Source: Oceanirhabdus sp. W0125-5 (GTDB taxonomy: Bacteria > Bacillota > Clostridia > Clostridiales > Clostridiaceae). Taken from it: a stretch of DNA of 64,000 bases. The DNA lies in contig NZ_CP115913.1 of assembly GCF_027938815.1 (NCBI RefSeq), positions 678,001-742,000 of the forward strand, in the 5' to 3' direction. The position numbers and the translations under genes were made by a program. Below, one piece after another: positions 41,123 through 57,462 of the stretch (its first letter is position 1; each line of letters begins with the position of its first letter). The notes beneath the pieces were generated by a model, which was given only the letters and a program-made list of their open reading frames with translations, searched no databases and had not been told where the DNA came from.

Positions 41123-41172
41123 ATTTTCAATCATGATCTCCGAAGATTTAATCTTTGGGAATCATAACACGT

Positions 41173-41257
41173 GCAGGTGTGGCGGAATTGGCAGACGCAC
41201 TAGACTTAGGATCTAGCGCCTTCGGGTGTAAGGGTTCGACTCCCTTCACCTGCACCA
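41173..41257 (+). tRNA. tRNA-Leu (TAG)
   Basis: Class II tRNA of 85 bases with loop CTTAGGA (anticodon TAG), a long variable arm and encoded CCA. Confidence 0.95.
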
Positions 41258-41269
41258 ATTTTTTTATGT

Positions 41270-41345
41270 GCGGTAGTAGCTCAGCTGGTAGAGCGCCACC
41301 TTGCCAAGGTGGAGGTCGCGAGTTCGAGCCTCGTCTACCGCTCCA
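41270..41345 (+). tRNA. tRNA-Gly (GCC)
   Basis: Cloverleaf with loop TTGCCAA (anticodon GCC), acceptor GCGGTAG/CTACCGC and encoded CCA. Second glycine tRNA of the cluster and last gene. Confidence 0.95.
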
Positions 41346-41430: not shown

Positions 41431-41499
41431 ATTCTTAAGAAAATTAAAAAAATTACTTAAGAATAAAAAATGAAGTGGATGTATGTGAAGTATAAAAGA

Positions 41500-41750
41500 T
41501 AATGTATAATGTAGAATGGATAATGTATAATGATGGACATTTCACTTCGTGAAATTTTGATATTATTGTTCATTGGATAATAAGGATTTTACTCGTTTCA
41601 TTAGAAATGAAACATTGCATTTTAAATACAATATTTTATCTTAGGATAAAATGAGTAAACCTTTCTTTATTTAAAGAACAATAAAATGTAGCTTCTCATG
41701 TAAGTGAGAAGCATCCATCATTATACATTATACATTATCAATTATACATT
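41500..41750. repeat. Multi-hairpin structured repeat, copy 1
   Basis: About 250 bases with nested hairpins: 41539-41555; 41595-41613; 41632-41651; 41691-41712; an enclosing pair TTATTGTTC/GAACAATAA (about 41563-41571 with 41676-41684); and an outermost TGATGGA/TCCATCA (41531-41537 with 41714-41720). Imperfect terminal repeats of the GATAATGTATAATG type flank it. Long blocks match the element at 57211-57455. There is no coding frame. Confidence 0.85.
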
Positions 41751-41885
41751 TTTTTTTAATCCTACGCATAGTATGCATTTGTTCTTCAAGGTATTTTTAA
41801 CTATTTTCCATAGATGTTTTAAAAAAAATATAATATAATCATTAAGGATGATAAAACTCTATTTTGAAATAAAAAGGAGAGTAAA

Positions 41886-43103
41886 ATGATAAAAAGCGTA
41901 CTTATAATATTGTTCTTTGGTTTTTTAGGAAATAAAATATTTTCAAAAATTAAATTACCAGGATTGCTTGGGATGATTATCGCAGGTATAATAGTTGGAC
42001 CATATGCTCTAAACCTTATTGATGGGGCAATACTTGATAATGCAGCAGACATAAGAAGTATGGCGTTAATAATAATTCTTTTAAGAGCTGGGTTAGGTAT
42101 AAACAAAGAGACCTTGAAAAAGGTTGGAAAGGTTTCAATGAAGATGGCCTCAATTCCATGTTTATTAGAAGGTGGAACTATACTGTTAATAACTCATTAT
42201 TTATTAGATTGGTCCTTTATTCAGTCAGGTATATTAGCATTTATAATTGCTGCAGTTTCTCCTGCGGTTATAGTGCCATCAATGCTTAAACTAAAAGAGT
42301 CCGGTAGAGGTATGGATAAGGGGATTCCCGTATTAATATTAGCTGGATCTTCAATCGATGATATATTTGCAATGACATTATTTGCTGTATTTATGGGACT
42401 TGAAAAGAATACAGGAGTTCCTTTAGGAAAGCAGCTTTTAGCAATTCCTTTTGAGATAATAGGTGGAATATTACTAGGATGTATTTCAGGTTATATGATC
42501 ATAAAGATTATGAAGATTTTTAAGACAAAATTTTCTAAGCAAGATAAGTTATTAATATTATTAGCATCTTCTTTCGGGGTATATATTTTAGGAGGTGTTA
42601 TTAAAGTATCAGGTCTTTTAAGTATAATGACCATAGGTTTCTTACTTCTTGAGTACAGTAAAGAAACTGCTGAGGAGATTCAACCATCATTAAATAAGAT
42701 CTGGTATTTTGCACAGATATTCTTATTCATGTTGATTGGTGCTGCGGTGGATATTAATATTGCTATAAAAGCAGGATTAGTAGGTTTATTAATAATTTCA
42801 ATAGGACTTATTGCTCGTACTATTGGAGTCGTAATAGCTCTTATGAAGTCAGGGTTATCAATGAAAGAAAAGCTGTTTTGTGCTATTGCATATGTTCCAA
42901 AGGCTACAGTACAGGCTGCTATTGGGGCTAAACCACTAGAAGCAGGTGTAGTTGGAGGAGAATTGATGTTAGCCATAGCTGTATTATCTATAATAGTAAC
43001 AGCACCATTGGGAGCTATTGGAATAAAGATTTCTGCACCAAAATTATTGAACAAAGTTAAGATTGTTAATGAGGAAGACATAGAGAAGTTATCTGCATCA
43101 TAA
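41886..43103 (+). CDS. Cation/proton antiporter (CPA family)
   Basis: A 405-residue membrane protein with about twelve helices. GLLGMIIAGIIVGPYALNLI, AVSPAVIVPSMLKLKESG and ILAGSSIDDIFAMTLF carry the conserved residues of the Na+/H+ exchanger core (the Asp-Asp pair in SSIDDIF). It exchanges Na+ or K+ for protons and supports pH or salt homeostasis; ion choice is not readable. It has no C-terminal TrkA or USP domain. It is a single gene ending at a terminator. Confidence 0.9.
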   Translation: MIKSVLIILFFGFLGNKIFSKIKLPGLLGMIIAGIIVGPYALNLIDGAILDNAADIRSMALIIILLRAGLGINKETLKKVGKVSMKMASIPCLLEGGTILLITHYLLDWSFIQSGILAFIIAAVSPAVIVPSMLKLKESGRGMDKGIPVLILAGSSIDDIFAMTLFAVFMGLEKNTGVPLGKQLLAIPFEIIGGILLGCISGYMIIKIMKIFKTKFSKQDKLLILLASSFGVYILGGVIKVSGLLSIMTIGFLLLEYSKETAEEIQPSLNKIWYFAQIFLFMLIGAAVDINIAIKAGLVGLLIISIGLIARTIGVVIALMKSGLSMKEKLFCAIAYVPKATVQAAIGAKPLEAGVVGGELMLAIAVLSIIVTAPLGAIGIKISAPKLLNKVKIVNEEDIEKLSAS

Positions 43104-43128
43104 AGAAAAAGCATAATATTTTTATATT

Positions 43129-43159
43129 GCACTAAGAGTGAAAGCTCTAGTGCTTTTTT
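43129..43159 (+). terminator. Intrinsic terminator of the antiporter gene
   Basis: GCACTA(AGAG) pairs with (CTCT)AGTGC around a short loop, then TTTTTT. It is 25 bases after the stop. Confidence 0.8.
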
Positions 43160-43270
43160 AAAACACTGCAATGTAAAATATTACTAAAAATGAAATAAAG
43201 TGTTATAATGTATTTAGGTAAATTTATATGCAAAAGAATTAAATAGTTAAAAAGGAAAGGAGGATAACTA

Positions 43271-44104
43271 ATGGAAGATTTGAATGTTCTAAGATTTATC
43301 CAAGATAATATACGAGAAGGGATAAGATGTGCTATTGCTATTATGACTGATACATATGGTTCTTCCCCTAGAAAAGAAGGTACAACCATGGGAGTTGATG
43401 AGAATGGAAATATTTCAGGGACTATAGGTGGAGGAGCATTAGAAAAAGAGGTAATAGAGAGATCTGTTGATGCAGTGAAAAAAGGTGAGAATAAGCGGCT
43501 TACTCTTGAATTGAATGATGAGGGAGAATTACATATGCAATGTGGAGGAAAGACAGAAATATATATAAAGGTGTTTGTTCCTAGTGACAGGATAATAATT
43601 GCAGGGTGTGGTCATATTGGTAAGGAATTATATTTTTTAAGTAATTATCTCAATTTCAGAACTGTTATGTTGGATGATAGAGAAGAGTTTGCTAATGAAG
43701 ATATTTTTAGTAATAGTGAAGAGGTATTAAAAGGAGATATATATGAAAATCTTAAGGGGATTAATATTACATCTAATGATTATATAGTTATTGTAACAAG
43801 AGGGCATAAGTATGATCAGGATGCTTTAGAAGCAGTTGTTAATTCTAATGCCAAATATATTGGAATGATAGGTAGTAAACATAAAATAATTCACACCCTT
43901 AATAGTTTAAAAGATAAAGGGATAACTGAAAAATCATTAAATAGAGTATATGCTCCAGTGGGGCTCGATATATCAAATGGAGAACCTAAAGAGATTGCAT
44001 TTGCTATTCTTGGAGAGATACTTAAGGTAAAGAATACAGGAAGTGGGGAGCACTTAAAGAAGGTAAAGTTTGGAGGAGATTTTTTTGAAAAAGAAACCTG
44101 TTAA
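43271..44104 (+). CDS. XdhC/CoxI-family molybdenum-cofactor insertion chaperone
   Basis: A 277-residue protein. The N-terminal XdhC_CoxI domain (GSSPRKEGTTMGVDENGNISGTIGGGALE) and the C-terminal Rossmann domain (IIIAGCGHIGKELY; AKYIGMIGSKHKI; YAPVGLDISNGEPKEIAFAILGEI) match XdhC, which sulfurates and inserts the molybdenum cofactor of xanthine-dehydrogenase-type enzymes. It heads a five-gene operon with a molybdopterin-binding protein and a molybdate transporter. No molybdenum hydroxylase gene lies in this window, so its client is elsewhere. Confidence 0.9.
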   Translation: MEDLNVLRFIQDNIREGIRCAIAIMTDTYGSSPRKEGTTMGVDENGNISGTIGGGALEKEVIERSVDAVKKGENKRLTLELNDEGELHMQCGGKTEIYIKVFVPSDRIIIAGCGHIGKELYFLSNYLNFRTVMLDDREEFANEDIFSNSEEVLKGDIYENLKGINITSNDYIVIVTRGHKYDQDALEAVVNSNAKYIGMIGSKHKIIHTLNSLKDKGITEKSLNRVYAPVGLDISNGEPKEIAFAILGEILKVKNTGSGEHLKKVKFGGDFFEKETC

Positions 44105-45104
44105 AGAATCAATAGGGATGATTCTATGTCATGATATCACTCAAATAATACCTGGTGAATTTAAAGGAAGAGCTTTTAAAAAAGGACATGTTATAAGAGA
44201 AGAAGATTTACCAGTTTTATTATCACTGGGAAAAGACAATATCTATGTGTGGGAAAATGATGAAACTATGACCCATGAGAATGATGCAGCAGAAGTATTA
44301 AGGGAGATTTCGGCTGGTGAAGGCTTGGAATTTACAGAGGTTAAAGAGGGGAAGATAAACTTTATATCTTCACAGGATGGTTTATTAAAGGTAAATAAAG
44401 AAATGCTATTTAAGTTCAATTGTTTTGATGATATAGTGTTAACTACATTTCATAATAACACTCCTGTAAAGAAGGGGGATATTGTAGCTGGAACTAGAAT
44501 AGTACCTCTAATTATAAAGACAGATAAATTAGATGAAGTAAGAAAAAATATCAATGAAAAAATAGTGGAAATAAAACAATTTAATAAAATGAAGGTGGCT
44601 GTTGTTACAACGGGGAGTGAGGTATTCTATGGGCGAATAAAGGATAGTTTTGGTCCTATTATAAAAGAAAAATTTCAAGAGTATGGTTCTAGAGTTATAA
44701 ACCAAGTAAAGGTGCCAGATAATAAGGAGAAAATTGTACAAGCTATAAATAGAGGACTTGAGAGTGAGGCTGATATAGTTGTTTGTACTGGAGGAATGTC
44801 GGTAGATCCTGATGATCTTACACCATCTGCAATAAGAGAGTGTGCAGATAAGGTTATAAAATATGGAGCACCTGTACTTCCAGGTTCTATGCTATTGGTA
44901 GCATATAGTGGAAATAAAGTGATTTTGGGATTACCTGGATGTGTTATGTATTCTAAAAGAAGTGTATTTGATTTACTTCTTCCTAGAATATTGGCTGGGG
45001 AAAAGCTTGAGAAGATGGACATTATAAAGCTAGCTCATGGAGGCTTGTGCTTGAATTGTGAAAAATGTGTATACCCTAAATGTTCCTTTGGAAAGGGTGA
45101 ATAA
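44085..45104 (+). CDS. Molybdopterin-binding (MoeA-like) protein
   Basis: About 339 residues. The N-terminal part carries a SAF-like segment and the C-terminal part the MoCF_biosynth domain with KVAVVTTGSEVFYGRI and VVCTGGMSVDPDDLTPSAIRE, plus PGSMLLVAYSGNKVILGLPG. It ends with CLNCEKCVYPKCSFGKG, an unusual cysteine-rich tail. Known relatives act in molybdenum cofactor maturation or nicotinate/xanthine dehydrogenase assembly. The start is probably TTG at 44085, after GGAGGAG, overlapping xdhC by 20 bases. The cysteine tail could bind a metal; that is inference. Confidence 0.8.
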   Translation: MKKKPVKESIGMILCHDITQIIPGEFKGRAFKKGHVIREEDLPVLLSLGKDNIYVWENDETMTHENDAAEVLREISAGEGLEFTEVKEGKINFISSQDGLLKVNKEMLFKFNCFDDIVLTTFHNNTPVKKGDIVAGTRIVPLIIKTDKLDEVRKNINEKIVEIKQFNKMKVAVVTTGSEVFYGRIKDSFGPIIKEKFQEYGSRVINQVKVPDNKEKIVQAINRGLESEADIVVCTGGMSVDPDDLTPSAIRECADKVIKYGAPVLPGSMLLVAYSGNKVILGLPGCVMYSKRSVFDLLLPRILAGEKLEKMDIIKLAHGGLCLNCEKCVYPKCSFGKGE

Positions 45105-45134
45105 GATGAAGAAATTAGTGTGGAGAAAATGTAA

Positions 45135-45914
45135 ATGAAGAGTAACATTGGAGCTGTAATAATAAAAGTAATTTTGGTTCTTGTTATAGGATTTTTTACA
45201 GTACCAATAATATCACTCATAGTATATTTGCTAAATCAAGGTGGAATTTGCATTGGTGAGAGATTTATAGATGGTCTAAAGGTGAGTTTAAAAAGTACCG
45301 GAATTACTATGCTAATAAATATAATATTAGGAGTTCCTATAGCGTACTATCTATCAAGAAACCAATTCAAGGGCAAGAGGATAATATCTATGATATTAAA
45401 TATTCCAATATTATGTCCTCCTTCTGTTGCTGGGATAATATTGCTTTTAGCCTTTGGGAGAGAAGGGATGATAGGTAAAATTTTAATTGTATTAGGAGTA
45501 AGCATTCCATTCACCTTCTTTGCTGTTATTATGGCGCAATGTTTTGTATCTCTGCCTCTTTTTATTCAAATAGCTAAAGAGGCCTTTGACAAGGTGGATG
45601 TGGAAATAGAGAAATCCACCTTAGTGTTAGGAATTAGCCCTATAAAGGTTTTTATTAAGGTGACTATACCTATGGCGTTATTTGGGTTATTGAAAGGGTT
45701 GCTTATGTCTTGGGGACGAGCTTTTGCAGAGTTTGGTGCAACAATAATCTTTGCAGGAAATCTAATTGGGGAAACACAGACATTACCACTAGCTATATAT
45801 TCCGCTATGGAAGGTGATTTTAATGAAGCTTTGGCAATGGCGCTAATTATGATAGTGATAGCTATTATGGTGCTTATAGTAGTTACTTTATTGGGTAGAA
45901 AGAGTTGGGATTAG
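45135..45914 (+). CDS. modB: Molybdate ABC transporter permease
   Basis: A 259-residue membrane protein with about six helices, including the EAA-type loop KEAFDKVDVEIEKSTLVLGISPIKVFIKVTIPMALFG, PSVAGIILLLAFGREG and AFAEFGATIIFAGN, the hallmarks of ModB/CysT permeases. It is followed by the ATPase (gap of four bases) and the binding protein. Imports molybdate (possibly tungstate) for the cofactor genes upstream in the same operon. Confidence 0.9.
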   Translation: MKSNIGAVIIKVILVLVIGFFTVPIISLIVYLLNQGGICIGERFIDGLKVSLKSTGITMLINIILGVPIAYYLSRNQFKGKRIISMILNIPILCPPSVAGIILLLAFGREGMIGKILIVLGVSIPFTFFAVIMAQCFVSLPLFIQIAKEAFDKVDVEIEKSTLVLGISPIKVFIKVTIPMALFGLLKGLLMSWGRAFAEFGATIIFAGNLIGETQTLPLAIYSAMEGDFNEALAMALIMIVIAIMVLIVVTLLGRKSWD

Positions 45915-45918
45915 AATT

Positions 45919-46554
45919 ATGTTAAATATTGAGTTTGAACAAGCATATGAGAATATTAATTTGAACATAAATTTGAGAATTAAATCTATGAGATGTGCTA
46001 TTGTGGGACCATCAGGTGCTGGAAAGACCAGTGTTTTTGATGTTATATCTGGTTTGAAGACTCCAACTAAAGGGAAAGTTGTTTTTGGAAAGGATGTACT
46101 ATATTCATCAGAGGAGAAGGTGAATATTCCTATTCATAAAAGAAGAATTGGGTATGTAAGGCAGAAGAGTTTTTTGGTTCCTCATTTAACAGTAGAAGAT
46201 AATATAACTATGGGATGCAATATTGATAATAAGGACTATATTGATATTCTTAATAGACTTGATATAAAGGATATACTGAGGAAACAACCAGGAGAATTAT
46301 CTGGAGGGGAATTGAGAAGAGTTGATATAGCAAGGATGCTGAGTATAAGACCTAGATTATTTCTCATAGATGAAGGTTTATCTTCTTTGAATGAAAATCT
46401 AAGAGAATGTGTACTTAAGTGTATTATAGATAAGTGTACAAAGTGGAATGCAAGAATGATGATTATAACGCATAACCAATTATATGTAAAAGGCTATGTG
46501 GATAGTGTGATTAAGATAAATAATGGAAAAATAATTAATGGGGAAATTATTTAA
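45919..46554 (+). CDS. modC: Molybdate ABC transporter ATP-binding protein, short form
   Basis: A 211-residue ATPase: Walker A GPSGAGKTS, Q-loop GYVRQKSFLVPHLTV, signature LSGGELRRVDIARML and Walker B LFLIDEGLSSLN. It stops right after the ATPase core, lacking the C-terminal molybdate-binding TOBE/MOP domain of longer ModC proteins that inhibits transport at high molybdate. So feedback control of uptake is probably absent or located elsewhere. It overlaps the region of the following binding-protein start. Confidence 0.85.
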   Translation: MLNIEFEQAYENINLNINLRIKSMRCAIVGPSGAGKTSVFDVISGLKTPTKGKVVFGKDVLYSSEEKVNIPIHKRRIGYVRQKSFLVPHLTVEDNITMGCNIDNKDYIDILNRLDIKDILRKQPGELSGGELRRVDIARMLSIRPRLFLIDEGLSSLNENLRECVLKCIIDKCTKWNARMMIITHNQLYVKGYVDSVIKINNGKIINGEII

Positions 46555-46567
46555 GAAGGTGAGAGTA

Positions 46568-47347
46568 TTGAGAAATAATAGGAACAAGAAAGCATGTATT
46601 ATTATGATTTTCTTGATTGCAGTAGTTATAATAGCATGTGGAAAGAAAGAATTAAAGGATAAGAAAGTAATAATATATGCTGCAGCATCAATGACAGAAT
46701 CCTTAAGTGATGCTGTTGAAGAAATAACAGAAAAACATCCTGATATTGAGATAAAGGTTAGCTTTAATAGTAGCAGTAAATTAAGATTGCAGATAGAACA
46801 AGGCGCAGATGTGGATATTTATATATCTGCTAGCAAAAGTCAATATGATAAGCTGAAAGAAAAGGTTGACTTTGAAAAGGATAAGAAGTTTTTATCAAAT
46901 GAGATAATAATAGCTGTTAATAATAAAAACAATATTGAGAAATGGAATGAGATACATAGAGATTATAAAGTGTTGAAAGCAGAAGATTATGTTCCAGCCG
47001 GAGAATATGCAAATAAGTTACTTAAAAAACTTAATGGTATTGAAAATGGGTTTAGCGAAAAGGTTTTGAGCAATGTTGTTTCTGAGGAGATAAATGTTAA
47101 GCAAGTTGTTAATAAGTTATATCTTGGAGAAGGGGATGTTGGATTTATATATAACACAGATCTCACAGAAAAAGTAAAGGATAGATTATATAAATTAGAT
47201 GTTCCAGAAGAGATGAAAGTGAAGAGTAATTACTATATATGTCTTTTAAAAAATGAAGAGGATAATATAGAAGTTTTTAATGAGTTACTAAGTTATGATA
47301 TTAAGAAGATTTTTCGTAAATATGGGTTTTCAATAGTAAAAAATTAG
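46568..47347 (+). CDS. modA: Molybdate-binding lipoprotein
   Basis: A protein of about 259 residues with a signal peptide and lipobox VIIAC, then the ModA fold: VIIYAAASMTESLSDAVEEI, FNSSSKLRLQIEQGADVDIYISAS and GDVGFIYNTD. It binds molybdate or tungstate outside the cell for the ModBC transporter encoded just upstream. I prefer the TTG at 46568, which follows an AAGGTGAG site; an in-frame ATG at 46538 lies inside the modC gene and gives a longer, more basic leader. Confidence 0.87.
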   Translation: MRNNRNKKACIIMIFLIAVVIIACGKKELKDKKVIIYAAASMTESLSDAVEEITEKHPDIEIKVSFNSSSKLRLQIEQGADVDIYISASKSQYDKLKEKVDFEKDKKFLSNEIIIAVNNKNNIEKWNEIHRDYKVLKAEDYVPAGEYANKLLKKLNGIENGFSEKVLSNVVSEEINVKQVVNKLYLGEGDVGFIYNTDLTEKVKDRLYKLDVPEEMKVKSNYYICLLKNEEDNIEVFNELLSYDIKKIFRKYGFSIVKN

Positions 47348-47414
47348 CAGGAATAGTGGAGATATTAAAATATTAATCATATATTATTAATGGAAATAAT
47401 ATCTGGAGGCTATT

Positions 47415-48497
47415 ATGCAGAATAAGACAAGTAAATCCTTATTCGGAGTAGATTTAAATCAATACAGAGCAAATGCAGATTTTAAAATACTGGCAACTAA
47501 ATGTGACTTCATTTTCCTGAGATCATCAGGCTCAGGAACTGGTAAGTTCAAAGTGGACACAAAATTCCTTGAATTAGCAAAAAAGTGTAGGGATTTTGGA
47601 ATTCCCTCAAGTGCGTATCACTTTGCTGTTCCATCAGCAGACCTTTCTACAGCAGATTCACAATGTGATGATTTCATAAACATATTGCAAGAGGGGTATG
47701 GTAAAGGAAATTATGGAGAATTATTCCCTGTAGTGGATGTAGAAGTACCGTTAGATAAATCAATATCTACTGATAATCTTCTAGATTGGATAGATAGATT
47801 TAGAAGAAGATTCGAGAGCAAAACAAGAAGAAGATTAATGTTATACACAGGTGCATTCTTTATAGAGATGTACAATAATTTCAAGCATTCTAAAAAGGGA
47901 TATATTTTATCAGATATGCCTCTTTGGATTGCCATGTATACGGATATTCCAACAAATCCACCATTCCCTAATGACGCAGGCGGATGGACTAGATGGAGAG
48001 TATGGCAATTCTCAGAAAAGGGAAAAGTTGCTGGTATAGATCTTCCAGTAGATGTTAACTGGGGTCCTGACCATATAGATCTTTTAAGAATGCCTAAACC
48101 AGTATCAAATGTGAAAGCGACTATCCATGGTGGTATGGCTAAGGTCACTTGGAATAAGAGCACAGATATCGATCTTAACGGATATAATCTATTTGTGAAT
48201 AAGGAATATATAACTACTCTAGATAAGAATGCTGTAGCTTATAATATAGACTTGAGAAAAGTTCCTCGTCTAAAAGCGGGAATGGAAGTGGTAGTAGGGA
48301 TTGAGTCATTTGATTTAGATGGTGAGTTTTCTAAGAGAGTAGAGGTTAAAGCAGGGACAAGAGATAATGAAATGGAACCAGAAGAAAGAATCCAATTAGA
48401 AGATCAAATGGAATTCCAAGAGTTTAGGTATGATAGCAAAGAAGATGAAGAAGAAGAAACATTCTTTATTAGGTATCCTAAAGGATGGAGATTATAA
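47415..48497 (+). CDS. Glycoside hydrolase family 25 lysozyme-like protein with fibronectin-like domain
   Basis: A 360-residue protein. Residues 8-220 form a GH25 (1,4-beta-N-acetylmuramidase) barrel: FGVDLNQYRANADF, PSSAYHFAVPS, LFPVVDVEVP and RRRLMLYTGAFF; the catalytic Asp and Glu are present (VDVEV). A fibronectin-III-like domain (about 230-320) follows, then an acidic tail. There is no signal peptide, so export or release by lysis is required for it to reach the wall. Possible roles are spore or mother-cell lysis, or phage-derived lysis; no phage genes adjoin. Confidence 0.85.
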   Translation: MQNKTSKSLFGVDLNQYRANADFKILATKCDFIFLRSSGSGTGKFKVDTKFLELAKKCRDFGIPSSAYHFAVPSADLSTADSQCDDFINILQEGYGKGNYGELFPVVDVEVPLDKSISTDNLLDWIDRFRRRFESKTRRRLMLYTGAFFIEMYNNFKHSKKGYILSDMPLWIAMYTDIPTNPPFPNDAGGWTRWRVWQFSEKGKVAGIDLPVDVNWGPDHIDLLRMPKPVSNVKATIHGGMAKVTWNKSTDIDLNGYNLFVNKEYITTLDKNAVAYNIDLRKVPRLKAGMEVVVGIESFDLDGEFSKRVEVKAGTRDNEMEPEERIQLEDQMEFQEFRYDSKEDEEEETFFIRYPKGWRL

Positions 48498-48519
48498 TTT
48501 AGGTATGTAAATATAAGAT

Positions 48520-48560
48520 AATCCCTCACATAACTAAAAGTTGTGTGGGGGATTTGTTTT
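48520..48560 (+). terminator. Intrinsic terminator of the GH25 gene
   Basis: A 15-bp imperfect stem (48520-48534 with 48540-48554, G-U pairs) is followed by TTGTTTTT. Confidence 0.8.
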
Positions 48561-48662
48561 TGAGTGTAGTAGGTAATTAAAAAAATTAAACCTATATTTT
48601 ACAATAATATGAGTATAATGTAGAATGTAAGTAGTAATTTAACATAAATGAGAGTGAGAAAA

Positions 48663-49580
48663 ATGAAAAATAATTCAACTATAGATGAAATACTAAAAAA
48701 AACAGCTAGCCAGCTTAATATTATCCAATATGGTGTTATAAAATGTGAAGTATTTGAAGAAATAAGAGAAATACTCCGAATAAGAAATGCAAAAGGGGAG
48801 TTAACTGGATTTGAGGAGGAAGATCTTGAAAAGCGAATAAATCCTAGGCTAACTATGGAGGATTGCAAGTCAATTATTGTAGGGGTGTTTCCCTATTATA
48901 AGAAGAGTAGTGAAGAAAGCAATTTAGCTAAGTACACACAAGGAGTAGACTATCATTTTGTAATAAATGATATGATGAATCTTTTGGGGGATAAAATAGG
49001 AGAAGAAGTTGAGAACTTTAAATATATGAGTTTTACAGATTCAGGTCCTTTGGTTGATAGATACGTTGCATATAAAGCTGGGTTAGGCTTTTGGGGAGTT
49101 AACGGACATATTATTAATGAGAAATACGGTTCATATATTCTAATTGGATATATGCTAACTAATAAAGAATTTAAAGAGTATAATACTCCTCTTGAGAACG
49201 GTAGTTGTATGAGGTGTATGAGATGTGTAAAAGTTTGTCCTGGTGGAGCTATAAAAGGTGATTATGATATAAATCCATTAAAATGTAAATCCTATATAAC
49301 TCAAAAGAAGGAAGAACTCACATGTGAAGAAGAAAATATACTCAGGAAGAGCCACGTTATATTTGGTTGTGATATATGCCAAGATGTATGTCCGCACAAT
49401 AAAAATATTGAAGAAACCCATATTGCAGAATTTAGTGAGGATTTAATAAGAAAAATTACAGAAGATGAAATAAATGAGCTATCAAATAAGAAATTTAGGA
49501 AGATATACGGAAGAAGAGCTTTTGGGTGGAGAGGAAGAAAAATCTTAGAGAGAAATATGAAAATAATTAAAGGGGAATAG
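48663..49580 (+). CDS. queG: Epoxyqueuosine reductase QueG-like
   Basis: A 305-residue iron-sulfur enzyme of the last step of queuosine synthesis in tRNA, where epoxyqueuosine is reduced with cobalamin. Two ferredoxin-type [4Fe-4S] motifs are visible, CMRCMRCVKVCP (about 199-210) and CDICQDVCP (about 247-255), plus the QueG-specific SFTDSGPLVDRYVAYKAGLGFWG. It lacks C-terminal HEAT repeats, as in short bacterial QueG relatives. ATG at 48663 is preferred over 48648. It leads an operon with GH20 and DUF4438 genes, an unusual context. Confidence 0.85.
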   Translation: MKNNSTIDEILKKTASQLNIIQYGVIKCEVFEEIREILRIRNAKGELTGFEEEDLEKRINPRLTMEDCKSIIVGVFPYYKKSSEESNLAKYTQGVDYHFVINDMMNLLGDKIGEEVENFKYMSFTDSGPLVDRYVAYKAGLGFWGVNGHIINEKYGSYILIGYMLTNKEFKEYNTPLENGSCMRCMRCVKVCPGGAIKGDYDINPLKCKSYITQKKEELTCEEENILRKSHVIFGCDICQDVCPHNKNIEETHIAEFSEDLIRKITEDEINELSNKKFRKIYGRRAFGWRGRKILERNMKIIKGE

Positions 49581-49592
49581 AGGGGGCAGTGT

Positions 49593-51488
49593 ATGAATAT
49601 TTTACCTAAACCAAGGGTTATGGAAAAGTTAAATGGTGAATTCTTATTTAAGAGTCACATGAGTATTGAACTTGATACTAGTTGTGGAGAGAGAGAGCTG
49701 TATTCAGCAAAAATTCTTAAGTGTGGATTTGAAGAATTAGAAGTAGATTGTTCAATAATAAAATCACTACCTAATAGGGCCGTTGGAGATATAAGAATTA
49801 AAATAGAAAAAGAGATGCAACAAACTCAAAATCTAGAGAATGAAGAAGAGGCATATATTATTGAGATAAAAGAAGAATATATTTCTTTGATAGCAACAAA
49901 TTCTAAAGGGATATTCTATGGTGTTCAAACATTAAAGCAGATTATTCAAAGTGGAGCTAGAAGAATATCATGTGCTAAGATTATTGACTACCCAGAATTC
50001 AAAGTTAGAGGATTTTATCATGATATAACACGTGGGAAAGTTCCTACACTTGAAACTTTAAAGGGCATTGTGGATGATCTTGCAAAATATAAGATAAATC
50101 AGTTTCAATTATATGTTGAGCATGTATTTCCTTTTAGAGGACATGAAGAAGTGTGGGCACATAAAGATCCTATAACCCCTGAGGAAATATTAGAGCTTGA
50201 TAAATATTGTATGGATAATCATATAGAGCTTGTTCCGTCTATAGCTACATTTGGTCACCTTTATCATTTATTAAGTTCAGAGCATTTTGGGCACTTATGT
50301 GAATTAGAAGGAAGTAAGGGAAAGGGATTTTCTTGGGTAGATAGAATGAGGCATCATACCATAGATATTAGCAACAGTGATAGTATAAAGGTTATAGAAG
50401 GTATGATAGAAGATTATTTACCTTTATTCACAAGTAATAAGTTCAATATATGTTGTGATGAGACCTTTGATTTAGGAAAAGGAAGAAGTAAAGGGTATGT
50501 AGAAGAAATTGGTAAAGGAAGAGCGTATTTAGATTTTCTAAATAAACTTATACATATAGTTAAGAGAAATGGTAAGACACCAATGTTCTGGGGCGATATT
50601 ATTCTAAATTATCCTGAGTTATTAAATGAGATAAGTGAAGATGTTATATGTTTAAATTGGAATTATAGTCCTGAGGCAACAAATAGTTCAACTAAGACTC
50701 TAAGTGAAAGTAAACGAAAATTTTATACATGTCCAGCAGTATGGGGATGGGATAGATTCATGAATGATATTAAAGGTTCTTTTAGTAATATCAAGAAGAT
50801 GGTATCATATGGTAAGGAGTTTGGTGCAGAAGGGGTATTATGTACTGATTGGGGAGATTACGGACATGTTAATTCTTATGCATCATCTAAGCCTGGAATG
50901 ATATTAAGTGCTGCTTTAAGTTGGAATAGTGATCTAAACATAGAAACACTAGAATCACAAATTTCAGAGGTGGAATTTGGAGATAGAGATATTGTGTCTT
51001 TAATGAAAGAACTAGGTGAGCAACAGTATGTATCTTTTATGGAGATTGTATGGTGGATGGAGAATAAGAAGAAAAAGACAACTTTGTTAATGGAACGTCC
51101 AGAACTAATTGAAAAATATATGCTCAACAAATCAGAGGAGGAGTTGAAGCAGAGTTATAGTGCAGCAGTTAAAATTGAAGAAGTTTTCAAGGATAAAATG
51201 TATGAACATTCTAAATGTAGAGAAGATATAAAGAGTTTTATATTAAGCGCTAGAGTAGTGGGATTATTGAATTCATTATATTTATATATTAAAGAGTGGG
51301 ATTTTAACGAGAAGGTAGATGGATTTATACATGATAATGAAGAACTTGCAACTTTGTTTGAAAAGTGGTTGAATGAGTATAAGGAAATTTGGAGAAAAGA
51401 TAATAAAGAAAGTGAATTGTATAGAATTGAAGAGTTTTTTATTGAAGTTTGTATATATTTAAGAAGAGGAGATGGAAAAGTATGTTAA
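49593..51488 (+). CDS. Glycoside hydrolase family 20 beta-N-acetylhexosaminidase
   Basis: A 631-residue protein with an N-terminal zincin-like domain (about 1-130) and a TIM barrel (about 135-470). The family's catalytic Asp-Glu pair is in NICCDETFDLGKG; substrate-contacting stretches include RGFYHDITRGKVP, WGDIILNYP and TDWGDYGHVNSYA. The C-terminal 150 residues form a helical domain. No signal peptide, so it acts on imported or recycled GlcNAc oligosaccharides or murein fragments. It overlaps DUF4438 by seven bases. Confidence 0.88.
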   Translation: MNILPKPRVMEKLNGEFLFKSHMSIELDTSCGERELYSAKILKCGFEELEVDCSIIKSLPNRAVGDIRIKIEKEMQQTQNLENEEEAYIIEIKEEYISLIATNSKGIFYGVQTLKQIIQSGARRISCAKIIDYPEFKVRGFYHDITRGKVPTLETLKGIVDDLAKYKINQFQLYVEHVFPFRGHEEVWAHKDPITPEEILELDKYCMDNHIELVPSIATFGHLYHLLSSEHFGHLCELEGSKGKGFSWVDRMRHHTIDISNSDSIKVIEGMIEDYLPLFTSNKFNICCDETFDLGKGRSKGYVEEIGKGRAYLDFLNKLIHIVKRNGKTPMFWGDIILNYPELLNEISEDVICLNWNYSPEATNSSTKTLSESKRKFYTCPAVWGWDRFMNDIKGSFSNIKKMVSYGKEFGAEGVLCTDWGDYGHVNSYASSKPGMILSAALSWNSDLNIETLESQISEVEFGDRDIVSLMKELGEQQYVSFMEIVWWMENKKKKTTLLMERPELIEKYMLNKSEEELKQSYSAAVKIEEVFKDKMYEHSKCREDIKSFILSARVVGLLNSLYLYIKEWDFNEKVDGFIHDNEELATLFEKWLNEYKEIWRKDNKESELYRIEEFFIEVCIYLRRGDGKVC

Positions 51489-52333
51489 AGAGCAACAGAG
51501 AAAGAATTGTAAAGTGGTCTGTACAAGGAAAGATTCATCATCCATTAGGAGGCAATTACAGAATTACTCATGAGGGAGAACCAAGAATTCTGCCTGCAAC
51601 TGGAGGTATAACTTATAATGTAAAGTTAGGTGACCCTGCATTTGGATGGGTAGGAGATCATGTTGAACCTGGAGTTTCTATAAGAAATGAAGATAAGGCT
51701 CAAAATGCAGCATTAACTACATTTGCCTGTGTTGGAAATGAGGCTAAAGTTGTATCAGGAGATGCAAAAGGGGCTATAGGATATGTTATTGGAGTTCATG
51801 GTGGTATAGATCACACAATTATTCATTTTGAACAAGAAGATCTTGAGAACATGGCGATTGATGATAAAATTTTAGTAAGAGCATATGGACAAGGATTAGC
51901 TTTAGACGATTACCCAGATGTTAAAATTCAGAGCATAGATCCTGAGTTATTCTTTAAATTAGGCATAAAAGAAGAAGATGGAAAATTGGTTGTGCCTGTT
52001 GTTGCGGAAGTTCCACCTTATTTGCTTGGATCAGGAATTGGATCAGGCAATGCATATACTGGTGACTATGATATAATGACAGCTGATGAAGAAGAAATCA
52101 AAAGACTTGGTTTAGATAAACTTAAGTTTGGAGATCTAGTACTTTTACAGGATGCTGATAATACTTTTGGAAGAGGTCATTACAAAGGTGCAGTTAGCAT
52201 AGGTGTTGTTATTCATAGTGATTGTGTTAAAGCGGGTCATGGACCAGGGATAACAACTATAATGAGTTGTAAGAAGCCAATGATTAAAGGGGAAATCGAT
52301 TCAACTTCAAATATAGCAAAATATTTATTATAG
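51482..52333 (+). CDS. DUF4438 protein
   Basis: A protein of about 283 residues matching DUF4438 by its opening WSVQGKIHHPLGGNYRITHEGEPRILP, GVHGGIDHTIIHF and the late GPGITTIMSCKKP blocks. The family is found in clostridia and other anaerobes with unknown function; conserved His and Asp residues suggest a metal-dependent enzyme. The ATG at 51482 follows GAGGAG and overlaps the GH20 stop, implying coupling; a link to amino-sugar use or to queuosine is only contextual. Confidence 0.8.
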   Translation: MLKSNRERIVKWSVQGKIHHPLGGNYRITHEGEPRILPATGGITYNVKLGDPAFGWVGDHVEPGVSIRNEDKAQNAALTTFACVGNEAKVVSGDAKGAIGYVIGVHGGIDHTIIHFEQEDLENMAIDDKILVRAYGQGLALDDYPDVKIQSIDPELFFKLGIKEEDGKLVVPVVAEVPPYLLGSGIGSGNAYTGDYDIMTADEEEIKRLGLDKLKFGDLVLLQDADNTFGRGHYKGAVSIGVVIHSDCVKAGHGPGITTIMSCKKPMIKGEIDSTSNIAKYLL

Positions 52334-52343
52334 ATTCAAAAAT

Positions 52344-52374
52344 AGCCTTGAAGAAAATTCTTCAAGGCTTTAAT
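52344..52374. terminator. Bidirectional terminator after the DUF4438 operon
   Basis: AGCCTTGAAGA and TCTTCAAGGCT form an 11-bp perfect stem with a four-base loop; A-rich and T-rich flanks suit both strands. It sits between the convergent DUF4438 and CPBP genes. Confidence 0.85.
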
Positions 52375-52397
52375 ATTGTAGAATTATTTAAGTCAAG

Positions 52398-53375
52398 TTA
52401 TTGAAAATACATTAGTGTAGATAAACCTAAGAATATTATTACTAACAATACAAATGAAATATTTATAATACCAACTTTTTTATCACTAGTGTATTCTCTA
52501 GCAAGATTATCAGATGTGTAATGTGGTTTGTAATTTATGGAATCCTCATCCATATTTATTATATCATCATTTAATTGTGTATCTTCATTTACATTATAAT
52601 TTTCTTCTAGCTTATCCATATTATTTTTCTTTATAGCGCTTAGGAAATAATAAGTTAAATATACAGATCCCATTAATACAACTACAGAAACTACAATATT
52701 GATTGATGAAGAGGAAAATTGCTCTGCTTGCTTAAGGGTCTCTTGATCAGCTTTAAGAAAAAAGGATAGTGCTACGGATAATCCGTTATTCACAAGATGC
52801 ATAATAATACTGGCAAATATAGATTTTGTATACCATACAACCGTTGCAAAAATAATTCCTAAAAAAGCAGTATAGAAAAATTGATGGAAATTCATATGAA
52901 GCATACCAAAAAGTACACCGTTAAGTATTATTGCTTTTTTAAATCCGAATTTTCTATATCCATCTAATACAACCCCTCTCATGATTACTTCTTCACAAAT
53001 AGCAGGAGTTATTGCTATAACAAAAAATAGATAGGGAAAAGAAAATTGTGTAACAATATCATTCATAAAATCAGTTATGGGACTGCCAAATATTTTAGAT
53101 GCTATGTTAGATATTACCCCTGTTATTGGTAGTATAACTAATGTTAGTGCTATTAATCTAAATACATCAGATAACTTTAAGGGGTTTAGTTTTAGAGTCT
53201 TTTTTATATCCATCTTGTTTGCTAACATGAATAAAATACAGGGTATTAATATAAATAAATATTGGTTTAAGGCTAATGTTAATTTAGTTGGCATGTTTCT
53301 TAGGAATAGTGTTCCTAAAACAGGTAAAAAAACACATGTAATAATCAATAAATTGGATTTTTGTACTTTGCTCAT
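52398..53375 (-). CDS. CPBP-family intramembrane glutamic endopeptidase
   Basis: A 325-residue membrane protein with about eight helices. The CPBP (CAAX protease / bacteriocin-processing) motifs are present: CEEVIMRGVVLDGYRKFG (EExxxR), GMLHMNFHQF (FxxxH type) and IMHLVNNGLSVAL. About 60 residues near the C-terminus form an acidic cytoplasmic loop before a final helix. Relatives cleave membrane proteins or give self-immunity against bacteriocins; no substrate gene is adjacent. Single leftward gene. Confidence 0.9.
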   Translation of the reverse strand: MSKVQKSNLLIITCVFLPVLGTLFLRNMPTKLTLALNQYLFILIPCILFMLANKMDIKKTLKLNPLKLSDVFRLIALTLVILPITGVISNIASKIFGSPITDFMNDIVTQFSFPYLFFVIAITPAICEEVIMRGVVLDGYRKFGFKKAIILNGVLFGMLHMNFHQFFYTAFLGIIFATVVWYTKSIFASIIMHLVNNGLSVALSFFLKADQETLKQAEQFSSSSINIVVSVVVLMGSVYLTYYFLSAIKKNNMDKLEENYNVNEDTQLNDDIINMDEDSINYKPHYTSDNLAREYTSDKKVGIINISFVLLVIIFLGLSTLMYFQ

Positions 53376-53700
53376 TTCGTAATCTCCTTAAATTAAAGTC
53401 ATATTCATTATATATTAAATATATCTTTACTTCCATAAGTATATACAATATTTACAATACATTAAATAAATTGGACGTTTGTGGTTACAATAGAATCATG
53501 TTAATATTTCAACATAAAATACACAAATATATTGTGATGAAATTAATTTCATAAATATAAAAAATATCAGTAAATCGTAGTAAATTCAAATAAAATAAGT
53601 TAAAATATTCTTAGAACAATGAAAAATTTTCGGTAGTGTCAAAAGTATATGAAAATTGATATGGAATATAAGGATTTAAAAACAAGAAGATTATTTAATT

Positions 53701-53790
53701 GAGAATTGAGAATTGAGAATTGAGAATGTCGGATATTTCTCTCCGAGAAATTAAAATGATTGCTATTTTTTATCCCGAAAGGGATGTGTG
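53701..53790. repeat. Heptamer tandem and partial structured repeat inside the IS
   Basis: Four tandem 7-base units (GAGAATT, last GAGAATG; 53701-53728) are followed by the same TTTCTCTCCGAGAAAT hairpin found in repeat copy 2 and by a second short hairpin (ATCCC/GGGAT). The remaining hairpins of the full element are absent. It lies between the transposase stop and the left IS end. Confidence 0.8.
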
Positions 53791-53852
53791 ATTCTAAAAA
53801 AGGGTATGGCAAATAAACCTATAATATAGGTCGATTTTAAAATAATGCGATA

Positions 53853-55247
53853 TTAAGATTGGCAGTATGACTCAGCTAATTTCATTAATTTGCACCAACG
53901 TGCAGGCATGGTTTCCAACTCTTCAAGTTCTGGAATTATTACAGGAACTTTTTGTTCTAAGCTTGCATGAGGTTTCAAGAAATTGAAGTATGTACAAAAA
54001 AGAATTATATGAGTTATAGAGCCGTTTGAGCTATTGTAGCCATTAGTAGTCTTATAACTTCTCTTAAAGGTTCTGTTTAATCGTTCAATAATCTGTTTTA
54101 AAGGACGATATTCAGCTGAAACTTCATCATCATTGGTAAGTCCAATTACTTGCATGACATCAAAATTAATATCGTGATTAGCGAAGAAAACTTCTGCTAA
54201 CAGATATATTGGATTACCATCAACTACTAGTTTAAGGCTTTCAGGAAGTTTTTCGTACTTAGTGATAACATCGTAGATGGCTCTACAAGCTAAGAAAGTA
54301 TCGCGATTAGGCGAAACTCTATACGAGAGAATTATCTTTTTAACAGCATCAAAGAAGAAACATATATAGTTCCATTTACCATTGACTTTGATGTATGTTT
54401 CATCGCCGCATATAGATTCTGTTGGATTATAGGGATAGTTGTCCACCATTGGTTTTAGTAGAACAGAAGCAGCTGCAGCGTAGTTTAGCACAGTTTGATG
54501 TGATATTTTAACACAATGAACTTCTCTCATGATAGCTGCTGTTTTTCTTGAAGATAATCCGTAATTTACGTAGTAAGTCATTATTAAGCCAAATACGTGG
54601 GATGATGAATACATCTTGGATAAGGATATATTACTTTGCACAGGACTATCGCCCTTTAGAGATGCAAAATCGAAATCAAATTCTCTAAATATATATCTAA
54701 CTTTAGTGTCATAGGGTTTTTCTTTGGTAATAGACTTTAAGTTGTTTTTATAAAAAGAACAGTTGTTGTTTCGGCATTTGTAAATGGTAAAATTACTACG
54801 ATTTTTAATTCGTTCTAAAAATTTATTGCAATGAGGACACTTAAATCTTACCTGCTTATCATAAAGGTTTTTAGTGTTAAAGTTAGTGGAACAGACTTTG
54901 CATTTATATTGACCACGCCCTCCATTGTTATCGTATAGATAAATATTTGGAGCATTGCATTTAGGACAACTGATTTTAGAACTCACGTGAGAACGTCCTT
55001 TTTGAGTTCTAACAGGAGCTAACTCTTTACCTTTGAGTTTATAATGCTCCGATAGGAGTTCTCTGTAATCTAACCTTTCAGGTTTCACAATTATTGGTTT
55101 ATCATCCACTTGTATTTTCCTGTAAGGTTTATCTAAAGTATCAGAATTGGGGATCTTATTGAGTCCTTTTCCAGTCAATAAAATAATGAGTAGATTTATA
55201 ACTTGCTTAAGAAAAACAATATACAAAACTAAATAATAATTAATCAT
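53853..55247 (-). CDS. DDE-type transposase of the insertion sequence
   Basis: A 464-residue transposase. An N-terminal membrane-like or leader segment is followed by two zinc-ribbon-like pairs of CxxC motifs (ISCPKCNAPN...KCKVC and FKCPHCNKFL...CRNNNC), a helix-turn-helix region and a DDE/RNase-H core with Asp in SICGDETYIKVNG, Asp in LKLVVDGNPIYLL and Glu in LKQIIERLNRTFK. The spacing resembles IS6/IS240-type enzymes. The frame is intact, so the element may still be active. Its start follows AAGGAGG. Confidence 0.88.
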   Translation of the reverse strand: MINYYLVLYIVFLKQVINLLIILLTGKGLNKIPNSDTLDKPYRKIQVDDKPIIVKPERLDYRELLSEHYKLKGKELAPVRTQKGRSHVSSKISCPKCNAPNIYLYDNNGGRGQYKCKVCSTNFNTKNLYDKQVRFKCPHCNKFLERIKNRSNFTIYKCRNNNCSFYKNNLKSITKEKPYDTKVRYIFREFDFDFASLKGDSPVQSNISLSKMYSSSHVFGLIMTYYVNYGLSSRKTAAIMREVHCVKISHQTVLNYAAAASVLLKPMVDNYPYNPTESICGDETYIKVNGKWNYICFFFDAVKKIILSYRVSPNRDTFLACRAIYDVITKYEKLPESLKLVVDGNPIYLLAEVFFANHDINFDVMQVIGLTNDDEVSAEYRPLKQIIERLNRTFKRSYKTTNGYNSSNGSITHIILFCTYFNFLKPHASLEQKVPVIIPELEELETMPARWCKLMKLAESYCQS

Positions 55248-55421
55248 GTTAAAAACTTGCCTCCTTATCTTTGGTTATATATTTTTTTTCGCAAACTAAA
55301 ATTAACACCTTTAGAGGGAGGGGGCAAGTCTAATATAGATAAAGTATTGAAAATCAAGGGGTTACGTCGAAAGTACCATTAAAACTTTTGACAATACCAA
55401 ATTTTCATGGAGGGTAGAGAT

Positions 55422-57194
55422 ATGAAAAAGAGTGTTGAATTGTTACTTAATAGGATGGAAGAATTAGGTATAGATGCATATGTTATACCAAGTTCAGATG
55501 CGCACATAAGCGAGTATGTAGCTGACCATTGGAAGAGTAGAGCTTGGATATCAGGATTTACAGGTTCTGCAGGGACTGTAGTTATATCAAAAGAGGGAAA
55601 TGGTTTATGGACAGACGGAAGATATTTCATTCAAGCTGCAAAGCAAATAGAAGGAACGGGTATTAAATTATTTAAGATGGGGCAACCAGGAGTTCCGACT
55701 ATAACACAATGGTTTAATAAAAATCTTGATAATGGAAGCACAATAGGTTTCTGTGGAGAGAGTACATCATTACTGTTTAAGAGAAATCTAGAAAAAGAGT
55801 GCAAGGATAAAGGATTTAAGATAGTTCCTGAGTTCGATCTTATAGATGATTTATGGGAGAATAGACCTGATATTCCTAAAACACAAGTATTTGTACTTGA
55901 AGAAAAATATGCAGGATGTAGTTTTAAAGAAAAATTAAGTAGTGTAAGAGAGAAGATGAAGGAAAAGGGCACAAATACTTATGTTATTAGCAGTTTAGAT
56001 GATATAGCATGGTTATTTAATATAAGAGGGAACGATATACATAACTATCCTGTAACAATCTCTTACGCAATAATAACCCTTGATGAAGCAAATCTTTTTA
56101 TAGATGAGACAAAACTTGACAATGAAGTTAAGAAATATTTAAAAGATAATGATATTAATGTATTCCCATATGAAGATGTATTTAATAAGGCAGGGGAATT
56201 CAAGAAAGAGGATGTTATATTCTTTAATCCTTCAAAGTCTAATTCGAAATTATATATGGCTATGCCTGATGGTTGTAAGAAAAAAGAGGGAAGAGACATA
56301 ACAACAGATTTAAAAACTATAAAAAATGAAGGTGAGCTTGCAAACCTGAGAAATTGTCATATAAAAGATAGTGCAGCCATGATTAATTTCCTACACTGGC
56401 TAGACACTACTGTAGGTAAGGAAGAAATCACTGAAATGTCAGCTGATGATAAGTTACTTGAGTTCAGAAAAGAACAAGATTTATTCATTGGAAGAAGTTT
56501 CGATACAATAGCAGGATATAAGGAACATGCTGCAATGATGCACTATAAGGCAACAGAAGAACAGCAATACAAACTTGAAAAGAAAGGATTATTCCTTATA
56601 GATTCAGGTGGACATTATCTAGACGGAACAACAGACATAACTAGAACAATTGTACTTGGTGATCTTACAGAAGAGGAAAAGTTCCACTTTACATTAGTTG
56701 CCAAGGGTCATATAGCATTGAATAATCTTAAGTTCTTACATGGAACAACAGGATCAAAACTTGATATGATAGCTAGATATCCATTATGGCAGCATGGTAT
56801 AGATTATAAATGTGGAACAGGTCATGGGGTAGGCTTTATACTGAATATTCATGAAGGACCACAAGGGCTTACTATGAGACCTAATAATGTTGTCTTTGAA
56901 AAAGGTATGATATTAACAAATGAGCCTGGAGTATACATGGAAGGCAAGCATGGAATAAGAACAGAGAATACTATGGTTGTTCAAGAGTGGAAGGAAACTG
57001 AATCAGGACAATTCATGGAGTTTGAAGTTATTTCATTTGTACCTATTGATTTAAGAGGAATAAATGTAGAACTATTAACTTGTGAAGAGAGAGAATGGCT
57101 TAATAATTATCATAAAGAAGTATATGAGAAGGTATCACCACTTCTAAATGATGAAGTAAAAGATTGGCTAAAAGAGGCTACAAGAGCCATCTAA
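55422..57194 (+). CDS. pepP: Aminopeptidase P family metallopeptidase
   Basis: A protein of about 590 residues that removes N-terminal residues preceding proline. Two creatinase-like N-terminal domains are followed by the pita-bread domain with metal ligands in LIDSGGHYLDGTTDITRT (two Asp), HGTTGSKL, GHGVGFILNIHEGP (His) and NEPGVYMEGKHGIRTENTMVV (Glu). The long form fits cytoplasmic clostridial enzymes. Start ATG at 55422 follows GGAGGG; an in-frame ATG at 55407 spans the IS junction. The insertion sequence separates it from its old promoter. Confidence 0.93.
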   Translation: MKKSVELLLNRMEELGIDAYVIPSSDAHISEYVADHWKSRAWISGFTGSAGTVVISKEGNGLWTDGRYFIQAAKQIEGTGIKLFKMGQPGVPTITQWFNKNLDNGSTIGFCGESTSLLFKRNLEKECKDKGFKIVPEFDLIDDLWENRPDIPKTQVFVLEEKYAGCSFKEKLSSVREKMKEKGTNTYVISSLDDIAWLFNIRGNDIHNYPVTISYAIITLDEANLFIDETKLDNEVKKYLKDNDINVFPYEDVFNKAGEFKKEDVIFFNPSKSNSKLYMAMPDGCKKKEGRDITTDLKTIKNEGELANLRNCHIKDSAAMINFLHWLDTTVGKEEITEMSADDKLLEFRKEQDLFIGRSFDTIAGYKEHAAMMHYKATEEQQYKLEKKGLFLIDSGGHYLDGTTDITRTIVLGDLTEEEKFHFTLVAKGHIALNNLKFLHGTTGSKLDMIARYPLWQHGIDYKCGTGHGVGFILNIHEGPQGLTMRPNNVVFEKGMILTNEPGVYMEGKHGIRTENTMVVQEWKETESGQFMEFEVISFVPIDLRGINVELLTCEEREWLNNYHKEVYEKVSPLLNDEVKDWLKEATRAI

Positions 57195-57210
57195 TGAAAA
57201 GATAAAAGCG

Positions 57211-57455
57211 AATTGAGAATGGATAATGGAGAATGGAGAATGGTTGACATTTCTCTCCGAGAAATCTTAGTTTTATTGTTCCTTGGACAAAAAGGTAACT
57301 CGTTTCATTAATATGAAACATTGTATTTGATATACAATATTTTATCTTCAAGATAAAATAAGTAAAAACTTCTTGCGCTAAAGAACAAAAGGATGTAGTT
57401 TCTGCGTATGCAGAAACATCCATCATTCTCAATTCTCCATTCACAATTCGCAATT
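57211..57455. repeat. Multi-hairpin structured repeat, copy 2
   Basis: About 245 bases with the same hairpin order as copy 1: 57249-57265, 57302-57319, 57339-57359, 57398-57417, and an enclosing TTGTTC/GAACAA pair. Flanks are imperfect inverted repeats of GAGAATGG type. Several stems differ from copy 1 by paired changes that keep pairing. It lies between pepP and the glycosylase gene. Confidence 0.85.
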
Positions 57456-57462
57456 TGTTTTC

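Follow-up and report, generated by a model that had tools for sequence, protein, structure and literature searches.

A 64,000-nt window of the Oceanirhabdus sp. W0125-5 genome (G000; one contig, 5.775 Mb) contains two gene-less copies of a multi-hairpin repeat element, and element coordinates are those of this window unless another sequence is named. An initial annotation of the window had placed the two elements at 41500-41750 and 57211-57455, and both are present there. Copy 1 (41497..41755, plus strand, as are all features of both copies) runs from a left arm to a right arm, which match our arm profiles in the plus orientation at 97.5 and 85.8 bits, respectively. It opens with a left heptamer array of five 7-mers (41498..41532) and the left end hairpin HP1, ATTTCAC-TTC-GTGAAAT (41539..41555; helix 1 of the pair counts below). 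An enclosing stem, TATTGTTC/GAACAATA (41564..41683; helices 2 and 3), was like HP1 read from the sequence. Nested in it are a further stem, TTTACTC/GAGTAAA (41588-41594 with 41653-41659), and three hairpins: HP2, GTTTCATT/AATGAAAC (41595..41613; helix 4), the central HP3, ATTGCATT/AATACAAT (41614..41632; helix 5), and HP4, ATTTTATC/GATAAAAT (41633..41652; helix 6). The right end hairpin HP5, GCTTCTCA/TGAGAAGC with GTAG at its foot (41691..41712; helix 7), and a right heptamer array inverted relative to the left one (41719..41753) close the element. Copy 2 (57207..57460; arm-profile matches of 107.4 and 115.7 bits) has the same orientation and a mean column identity of 88% with copy 1. Its left array lies at 57215..57242, HP1 (ATTTCTC-TCC-GAGAAAT) at 57249..57265, HP5 (GTTTCTGC/GCAGAAAC) at 57398..57417 and its right array at 57424..57455, of which 57424-57437 was found by pattern and the remainder by eye.

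Inside the arrays the order is therefore HP1, enclosing stem, three inner hairpins and HP5, and each arm, of about 125 bp, combines a tandem array of 7-bp units with an end hairpin and inner stems. The 7-bp unit, N-A-G/T-A-A-T-G/T and variants, reads forward in the left array and reverse-complemented in the right. The initial annotation had described flanking inverted repeats; the arrays are indeed inverted left against right, but they are tandem 7-bp arrays, which it overlooked along with the gene cargo and the link to S23 (23S-intervening-sequence) proteins described below. The compensatory stems that it listed were all found, ATTTCAC/GTGAAAT against ATTTCTC/GAGAAAT and the HP5 pair of copy 1 against that of copy 2, as was its TTGTTC/GAACAA enclosing stem in both copies. 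Each copy folds far better than its 200 shuffles (z of -11.7 and -8.9), none of which did as well. A covariance-model search of the window against Rfam listed only a purine riboswitch (RF00167, 38776-38875) and tRNAs, and the repeats matched no family. Genes for rRNA are absent from the window; the copies sit between protein and tRNA genes, with seven tRNA genes in a row (40700-41342) directly preceding copy 1.

The covariation first read from two copies extends to the family. Of 84 gene-less copies with the right size and an unambiguous orientation, the 69 that had a text anchor were aligned and the other 15 were set aside. Two-sided changes occur in 25 of 52 pairs, including six of the eight in helix 4, and make up 123 cells versus 36.2 ± 6.1 in shuffles. 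Pairing holds in 92.5% of cells, compared with 40-48% after sliding the partners, and 955 of 966 cells in the two end hairpins are Watson-Crick. Pairing losses explained by one transition, counted over all helices, give 112 G-U and 83 A-C, a ratio that leans slightly to RNA and is consistent with DNA hairpins. GTAG stands at the foot of HP5 in 53 of the 69 copies by text pattern, while the HP1 consensus has TAAA, not GTAG, at the matching place on the complementary strand. The heptamer arrays diverge faster than the core yet stay matched within one element. Among 82 elements, third-base agreement is 0.62 between an element's own arms, compared with 0.43 (left) and 0.49 (right) for the same arm of the nearest core relative and 0.28 at random. 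Since the arrays change sequence quickly but remain self-complementary, it is pairing, not sequence, that would be recognised.

Gathering further copies, as the initial annotation had proposed, uncovered a large family in G000 itself and in O. seepicola, the other species of the genus. Of 477 first-look candidates from a DNA search of G000, 40 were scored and proved to be the query and 39 copies at 79-87% identity, and a heptamer-array pattern matched G000 975 times versus eight for the reversed pattern. Left- and right-arm profiles built from 31 copies were run over 1.619 Mb of the 5.775 Mb of G000 (28%), comprising 1.219 Mb that were partly heptamer-selected and a contiguous 0.4 Mb, and over 0.855 Mb of O. 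seepicola. The two G000 samples hold 102 and 42 two-ended elements (144 together) and 55 and 10 single ends; O. seepicola has 32 and 21. Most two-ended elements measure 225-270 bp (78/102, 30/42 and 18/32 in the same order), with 3, 0 and 4 shorter, 9, 8 and 8 of 271-480 bp, and 12, 4 and 2 longer than 480 bp, so that 16 of the 144 G000 elements fall in the longest class. In two of the first sample's 12 long elements one arm is weak (1399569, 37.4 bits; 4131992, 40.2 bits), and the pairing rule missed an S23 locus at G000 1473622. An 867-bp "element" of O. seepicola (C2:567657) was discarded as a pairing artefact around a gene that separates two elements in G000. When the core was searched in 206 genomes of the host's bacterial family, scoring at most four candidates per genome, 15 had matches; 13 of these were dismissed as short and chance-like, leaving G000 and O. 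seepicola as the only convincing cases. The left hairpin, scanned as an exact pattern, had no match in IMG/VR, and no account of the Oceanirhabdus family surfaced in a literature search of PMC articles.

A third trace of the family in the window is a stand-alone left-end module of heptamers and HP1 (53697..53752, plus strand), which lies within an insertion sequence (IS) at 53632-55431 encoding a 464-aa DDE (IS240-like) transposase on the minus strand. The module recurs in a 91% identical IS copy at G000 1518479-1520300, and there is a deletion derivative at G000 1155161-1155488.

Most of the long G000 elements carry genes. All 12 long elements of the first G000 sample contain an open reading frame (ORF) of at least 150 aa. 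In the four gene carriers whose junctions were inspected the genes lie in the central hairpin, HP3 of copy 1, between its ATTGTATT and AATACAAT halves. The cargo consists of ordinary accessory genes. In G000 it includes a WYL regulator with AlkZ-like and GNAT-like proteins, a CAAX-protease-like protein, a GGDEF protein, an alpha/beta hydrolase with a GNAT, further GNATs, an Asp/Glu racemase, a DUF2785 protein, an HTH regulator, an APH-family kinase, one TnpB and one protein without a Pfam match; in O. seepicola, a serine hydrolase of beta-lactamase fold and a DUF4177 protein. The long elements of the second G000 stretch, four in number, have only small ORFs, no longer than 139 aa, or lack any of 60 aa. 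No transposase occurs in the 144 two-ended G000 elements beyond the one TnpB. A terminator of the type GTTGGYGAC...GTCRCCAAC recurs within several elements that carry genes or measure 380-480 bp. The latter size class (12 aligned sequences) was considered as one conserved small RNA and rejected, as it contains terminator hairpins of several kinds instead.

Orthologous sites differ in the presence of elements. Both flanks of 77 G000 sites could be matched in O. seepicola, which has an element or remnant at 43 of them, is empty within 60 bp at 19 and is in another state at 15. At one site a 1283-bp G000 element with a CAAX-like gene faces a 462-bp gene-less element, and at another a different gene replaces a GNAT gene behind the same left arm. 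Six clean empty sites were inspected, and all are at intrinsic terminators, in or adjoining the A- or T-tract of the stem; some of the others contain remnants. More generally, 22/102 elements have a terminator-like hairpin no more than 12 bp from one end, the corresponding count for random intergenic points being 18/560 (Fisher 1.9e-9). Elements occupy 23/80 convergent, 55/465 tandem and 7/100 divergent intergenic regions, a pattern to which counterselection of insertions near promoters could contribute.

With replichores assigned from GC skew and gene strand, and elements of unclear orientation set aside (7/102 and 7/42 in the G000 samples, 9/32 in O. seepicola), element orientation tracks the replication fork and not transcription of the neighbours. 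Between convergent genes 42 of 51 elements are oriented with the fork (25/30 in G000, 8/10 in a held-out G000 stretch and 9/11 in O. seepicola). The corresponding counts are 44/53, 12/15 and 8/10 for leading tandem pairs, and 5/7 and 2/6 for divergent pairs, of which O. seepicola has none. In tandem pairs on the lagging strand, 5/5, 2/4 and 2/2 elements run with the fork and against the genes. Because the O. seepicola set includes some orthologues of G000 elements, the two sets are not independent. Orientation with replication suggests movement via single-stranded DNA.

Genes for four-helix-bundle proteins occur near heptamers, which prompted a search for S23. TIGR02436 gave two matches in G000 and one in O. 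seepicola. Each of the three genes lies on the strand of a left arm (E 2e-26 to 1e-20) and begins no more than about 170 bp behind it, against a background of 32 in 1074 G000 genes with a left arm at 50-250 bp. Both G000 proteins belong to PF05635, and for one of them the nearest PDB structure is 2rld (E 1e-31). We compared the flanks of S23 genes outside the genus with those of other genes in two sets. The plasmid set comprised 14 S23 loci from Clostridia, Bacteroidota, Spirochaetota, Cyanobacteriota and Chloroflexota, with 76 other genes of the same records as controls; the second comprised 12 S23 loci from five viral contigs, two phage records and five plasmids, with 49 control genes. The best flank lag is 7 for 13/14 S23 loci versus 14/76 controls in the plasmid set and for 11/12 versus 15/49 in the second (24/26 versus 29/125 pooled), and the flanks are mostly inverted. 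In the plasmid set, median lag-7 identity is 0.84 for S23 and 0.46 for controls (p 2e-8) and the inverted-repeat score 43.5 versus 18 (p 5e-9), while lags of 5, 6, 8, 9 and 10 show no difference. A strict test requiring both a 7-bp period and an inverted repeat in the flanks was passed by 9/14 S23 loci and 0/76 controls in the plasmid set and by 9/12 and 2/49 in the second; pooled, 18/26 S23 loci pass. The one clostridial plasmid locus is weak, with an inverted-repeat score of 21. The unit itself varies by genome, for example TTAGTGA, AATTCGT and GTCGCAA around S23 genes. A literature search of PMC articles found no description of S23 genes as generally having heptamer-array ends, a passage on Coxiella being the one hint.

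Two further observations concern the surroundings of S23 genes. One of the S23 genes and a reverse transcriptase gene are some 3 kb apart (G000 985649 and 988850; loci L246 and L239). S23 genes with 7-bp-periodic flanks also lie, insertion-like, amid defence genes (L247, L251, L252, L255 and L259), namely hsdS-hsdR, cas2-cas1, csx2-cas1 and DISARM-BREX.

How can these features be accounted for together? The window copies are gene-less members of a heptamer-hairpin family, some larger members of which carry cargo in the central hairpin. The family likely travels at replication forks in the form of a folded single strand, landing beside terminators, and is probably served by S23; we give this joint reading an even chance. 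The elements would transpose, as opposed to spreading by recombination, with the folded strand as the substrate and the lagging-strand template as the route. S23 would aid the movement, and gene-less copies would be end pairs mobilised in trans. We know of no catalytic motif or catalytic residues in S23, and a host enzyme or an unfound partner would thus cut and join. On our reading the elements behave like mobile insertion cassettes or miniature inverted-repeat transposable elements (MITEs) whose ends are recognised as folded strands. The initial annotation had left two possibilities, of which a non-autonomous mobile element moving as a folded strand is the best fit to the empty orthologous sites, the covarying hairpins and the replication-tied orientation; that it moves is what we infer from these patterns.

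Several observations weigh against this joint reading. Neither excision nor insertion was observed, and target duplication is not discernible at the inspected empty sites, which are homopolymer tracts, so that a duplication is indistinguishable from homopolymer length. With 28% of G000 scanned, an autonomous copy could exist elsewhere in the genome. S23 occurs in 78 of the 206 family genomes, with Oceanirhabdus arms convincing in two, and a heptamer-rich genome (G188) gives no S23 match; heptamers without S23 and the mismatched distribution mean that S23 may be just a frequent cargo. The regions scanned contain 176 two-ended elements, compared with only three S23 loci; two of the three have a right arm within 1.5 kb after S23, one of these arms belonging to an adjacent element. 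In the comparison of flanks, two of the 49 control genes pass the strict test, both phage-record S23 loci and L263 fail it, and the plasmid locus L260 has strong inverted flanks without a 7-bp period. The P values are also too small, because several plasmid S23 loci are related.

The S23 protein may thus be either a mobility factor or a favoured passenger. From the arms in Oceanirhabdus and the 7-bp arrays around S23 genes in other phyla, we infer an S23-associated class of mobile element that was amplified and loaded with cargo in Oceanirhabdus. A bolder form of this idea, which we regard as tentative and somewhat doubtful, is that S23 (23S_rRNA_IVP, four-helix-bundle) proteins mark a class of mobile element found across bacteria, distinct from IS, introns and integron cassettes, with inverted arrays of a freely changing 7-bp unit at its ends. 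S23 would then be a mobility or replication-fork factor, the classical rRNA intervening sequences and scattered bacterial heptamer repeats would be relics, and in Oceanirhabdus the class would have become a gene-cassette system, with genes loaded between arms that are self-complementary. If true, this would give a home to the S23 protein family, whose structures are solved and which lacks a known function, and would help to explain the sporadic occurrence of rRNA intervening sequences and the heptamers that they can bear. It would also add a route by which bacteria shuttle single genes among intergenic sites without a linked transposase.

The main rival as catalyst is a RAYT-like Y1 HUH transposase acting in trans, as presumed for REPINs, with S23 as mere cargo. 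G000 does have four orphan Y1 genes of 305-312 aa, one in the window (26808-27725, plus strand; 305 aa, PF01797) and three of 307-312 aa outside it, and O. seepicola has four, three in the same size range and one of 204 aa. The GTAG at the foot of HP5 would suit such an enzyme, and replication-tied orientation is documented for IS200/IS605 Y1 enzymes in the relevant part of PMC6006769. The left hairpin, with TAAA at the matching place, does not suit it. Around the Y1 genes, that of the window included, there is no arm match and no inverted heptamer pair within 1.5 kb, whereas RAYT subclasses associated with repetitive extragenic palindromic (REP) sequences mostly have REPs within 1 kb, according to a section of PMC6006769. 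RAYT-like matches occur in 110 of the 206 family genomes and the arms convincingly in two. An attempt to tie the elements to RAYT genes thus failed on both neighbourhood and distribution, and we find this rival unlikely. Reverse transcriptases were also tried as a link and rejected; two G000 and three O. seepicola matches showed no arm up to E 1 in the loci examined.

Ordinary MITEs or mobile insertion cassettes whose parent was a DDE insertion sequence, lost or located outside the scanned part, would account for the long inverted ends, and gene-less and gene-carrying versions without a transposase follow the mobile-insertion-cassette pattern as outlined in part of PMC3129680. The 28% coverage of G000 leaves room for such a parent. 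No IS with family ends was found in the 1.619 Mb scanned, one IS sharing the outer module alone and on one side; both IS copies with the heptamer-HP1 module have it on one side only. No transposase-bearing element other than the TnpB carrier was found among the 144, and neither a single conserved terminal repeat nor a clear target duplication is evident, so we consider this origin improbable. A structured RNA or RNA processing signal, such as an attenuator, terminator or RNase III site, would fit the strong folding and covariation, the 3'-end positions in 23/80 convergent regions and the somewhat commoner G-U than A-C (112 to 83). The two kinds of loss are nevertheless of similar frequency, pairing in the two end hairpins is nearly all Watson-Crick, orientation goes with replication and not transcription, no Rfam family matches, and the gene cargo and empty orthologous sites are at odds with such a role. 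The non-coding RNA family offered by the initial annotation is accordingly the less supported of its two possibilities, and we think an RNA function very unlikely.

Known systems share parts of this anatomy. The 23S rRNA intervening sequences (S23/IVP; PF05635, TIGR02436) have an S23 gene within an inverted-repeat element, and the Coxiella one has tandem GACAGAT heptamers before the S23 start, as a passage of PMC4990558 describes. The same passage states that the S23 family lacks a known function and relates an older idea that the intervening-sequence ORF serves mobility. The same protein family sits behind left arms in Oceanirhabdus. However, the Oceanirhabdus elements are intergenic where inspected, amplified to hundreds, mostly without S23 and able to carry other genes, and the window copies are not inserted in rRNA genes. 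With mobile insertion cassettes and MITEs, in the portion of PMC3129680 that treats them, they share inverted ends, optional passenger genes and the lack of an own transposase; they differ in the heptamer arrays and covarying hairpins of their ends, their replication-tied orientation and the absence of a parent IS in the part scanned. REPINs resemble them in paired inverted hairpins, intergenic position, high copy number, GTAG at one hairpin and Y1 genes in the genome, as far as the relevant sections of PMC6006769 and PMC3733652 go. Unlike REPINs, the elements are about 250 bp long with inner stems and hairpins and carry genes; cognate repeats do not flank the RAYT-like genes, and GT[AG]G does not stand at the foot of both hairpins. 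The TAACTGA repeats of Beggiatoaceae and other bacteria are also abundant intergenic tandem 7-mers of related sequence, but in the part of PMC4679880 concerned they are mainly direct repeats upstream of genes, with no paired arms or S23 link. For the class we propose, the heptamer-flanked S23 element, inverted 7-bp arrays at both ends are the defining trait, and the Oceanirhabdus elements have them.

Related structures were seen outside the family proper. In other Clostridiaceae (G166 and G188; L071-L079), elements of about 105-180 bp have inverted heptamer arrays enclosing quite different hairpins. Heptamer-only palindromes of 40-70 bp occur in O. seepicola (C2 151407-151476 and 474800-474857) and in G188 (L075 9171-9212); the two in O. 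seepicola occupy sites of full G000 elements, as expected of interior deletions or excision scars. By eye, single left-end modules of heptamers and HP1 also lie beside several displaced Rhs C-terminal pieces, at L050 5138-14144 and G000 4.41-4.47 Mb.

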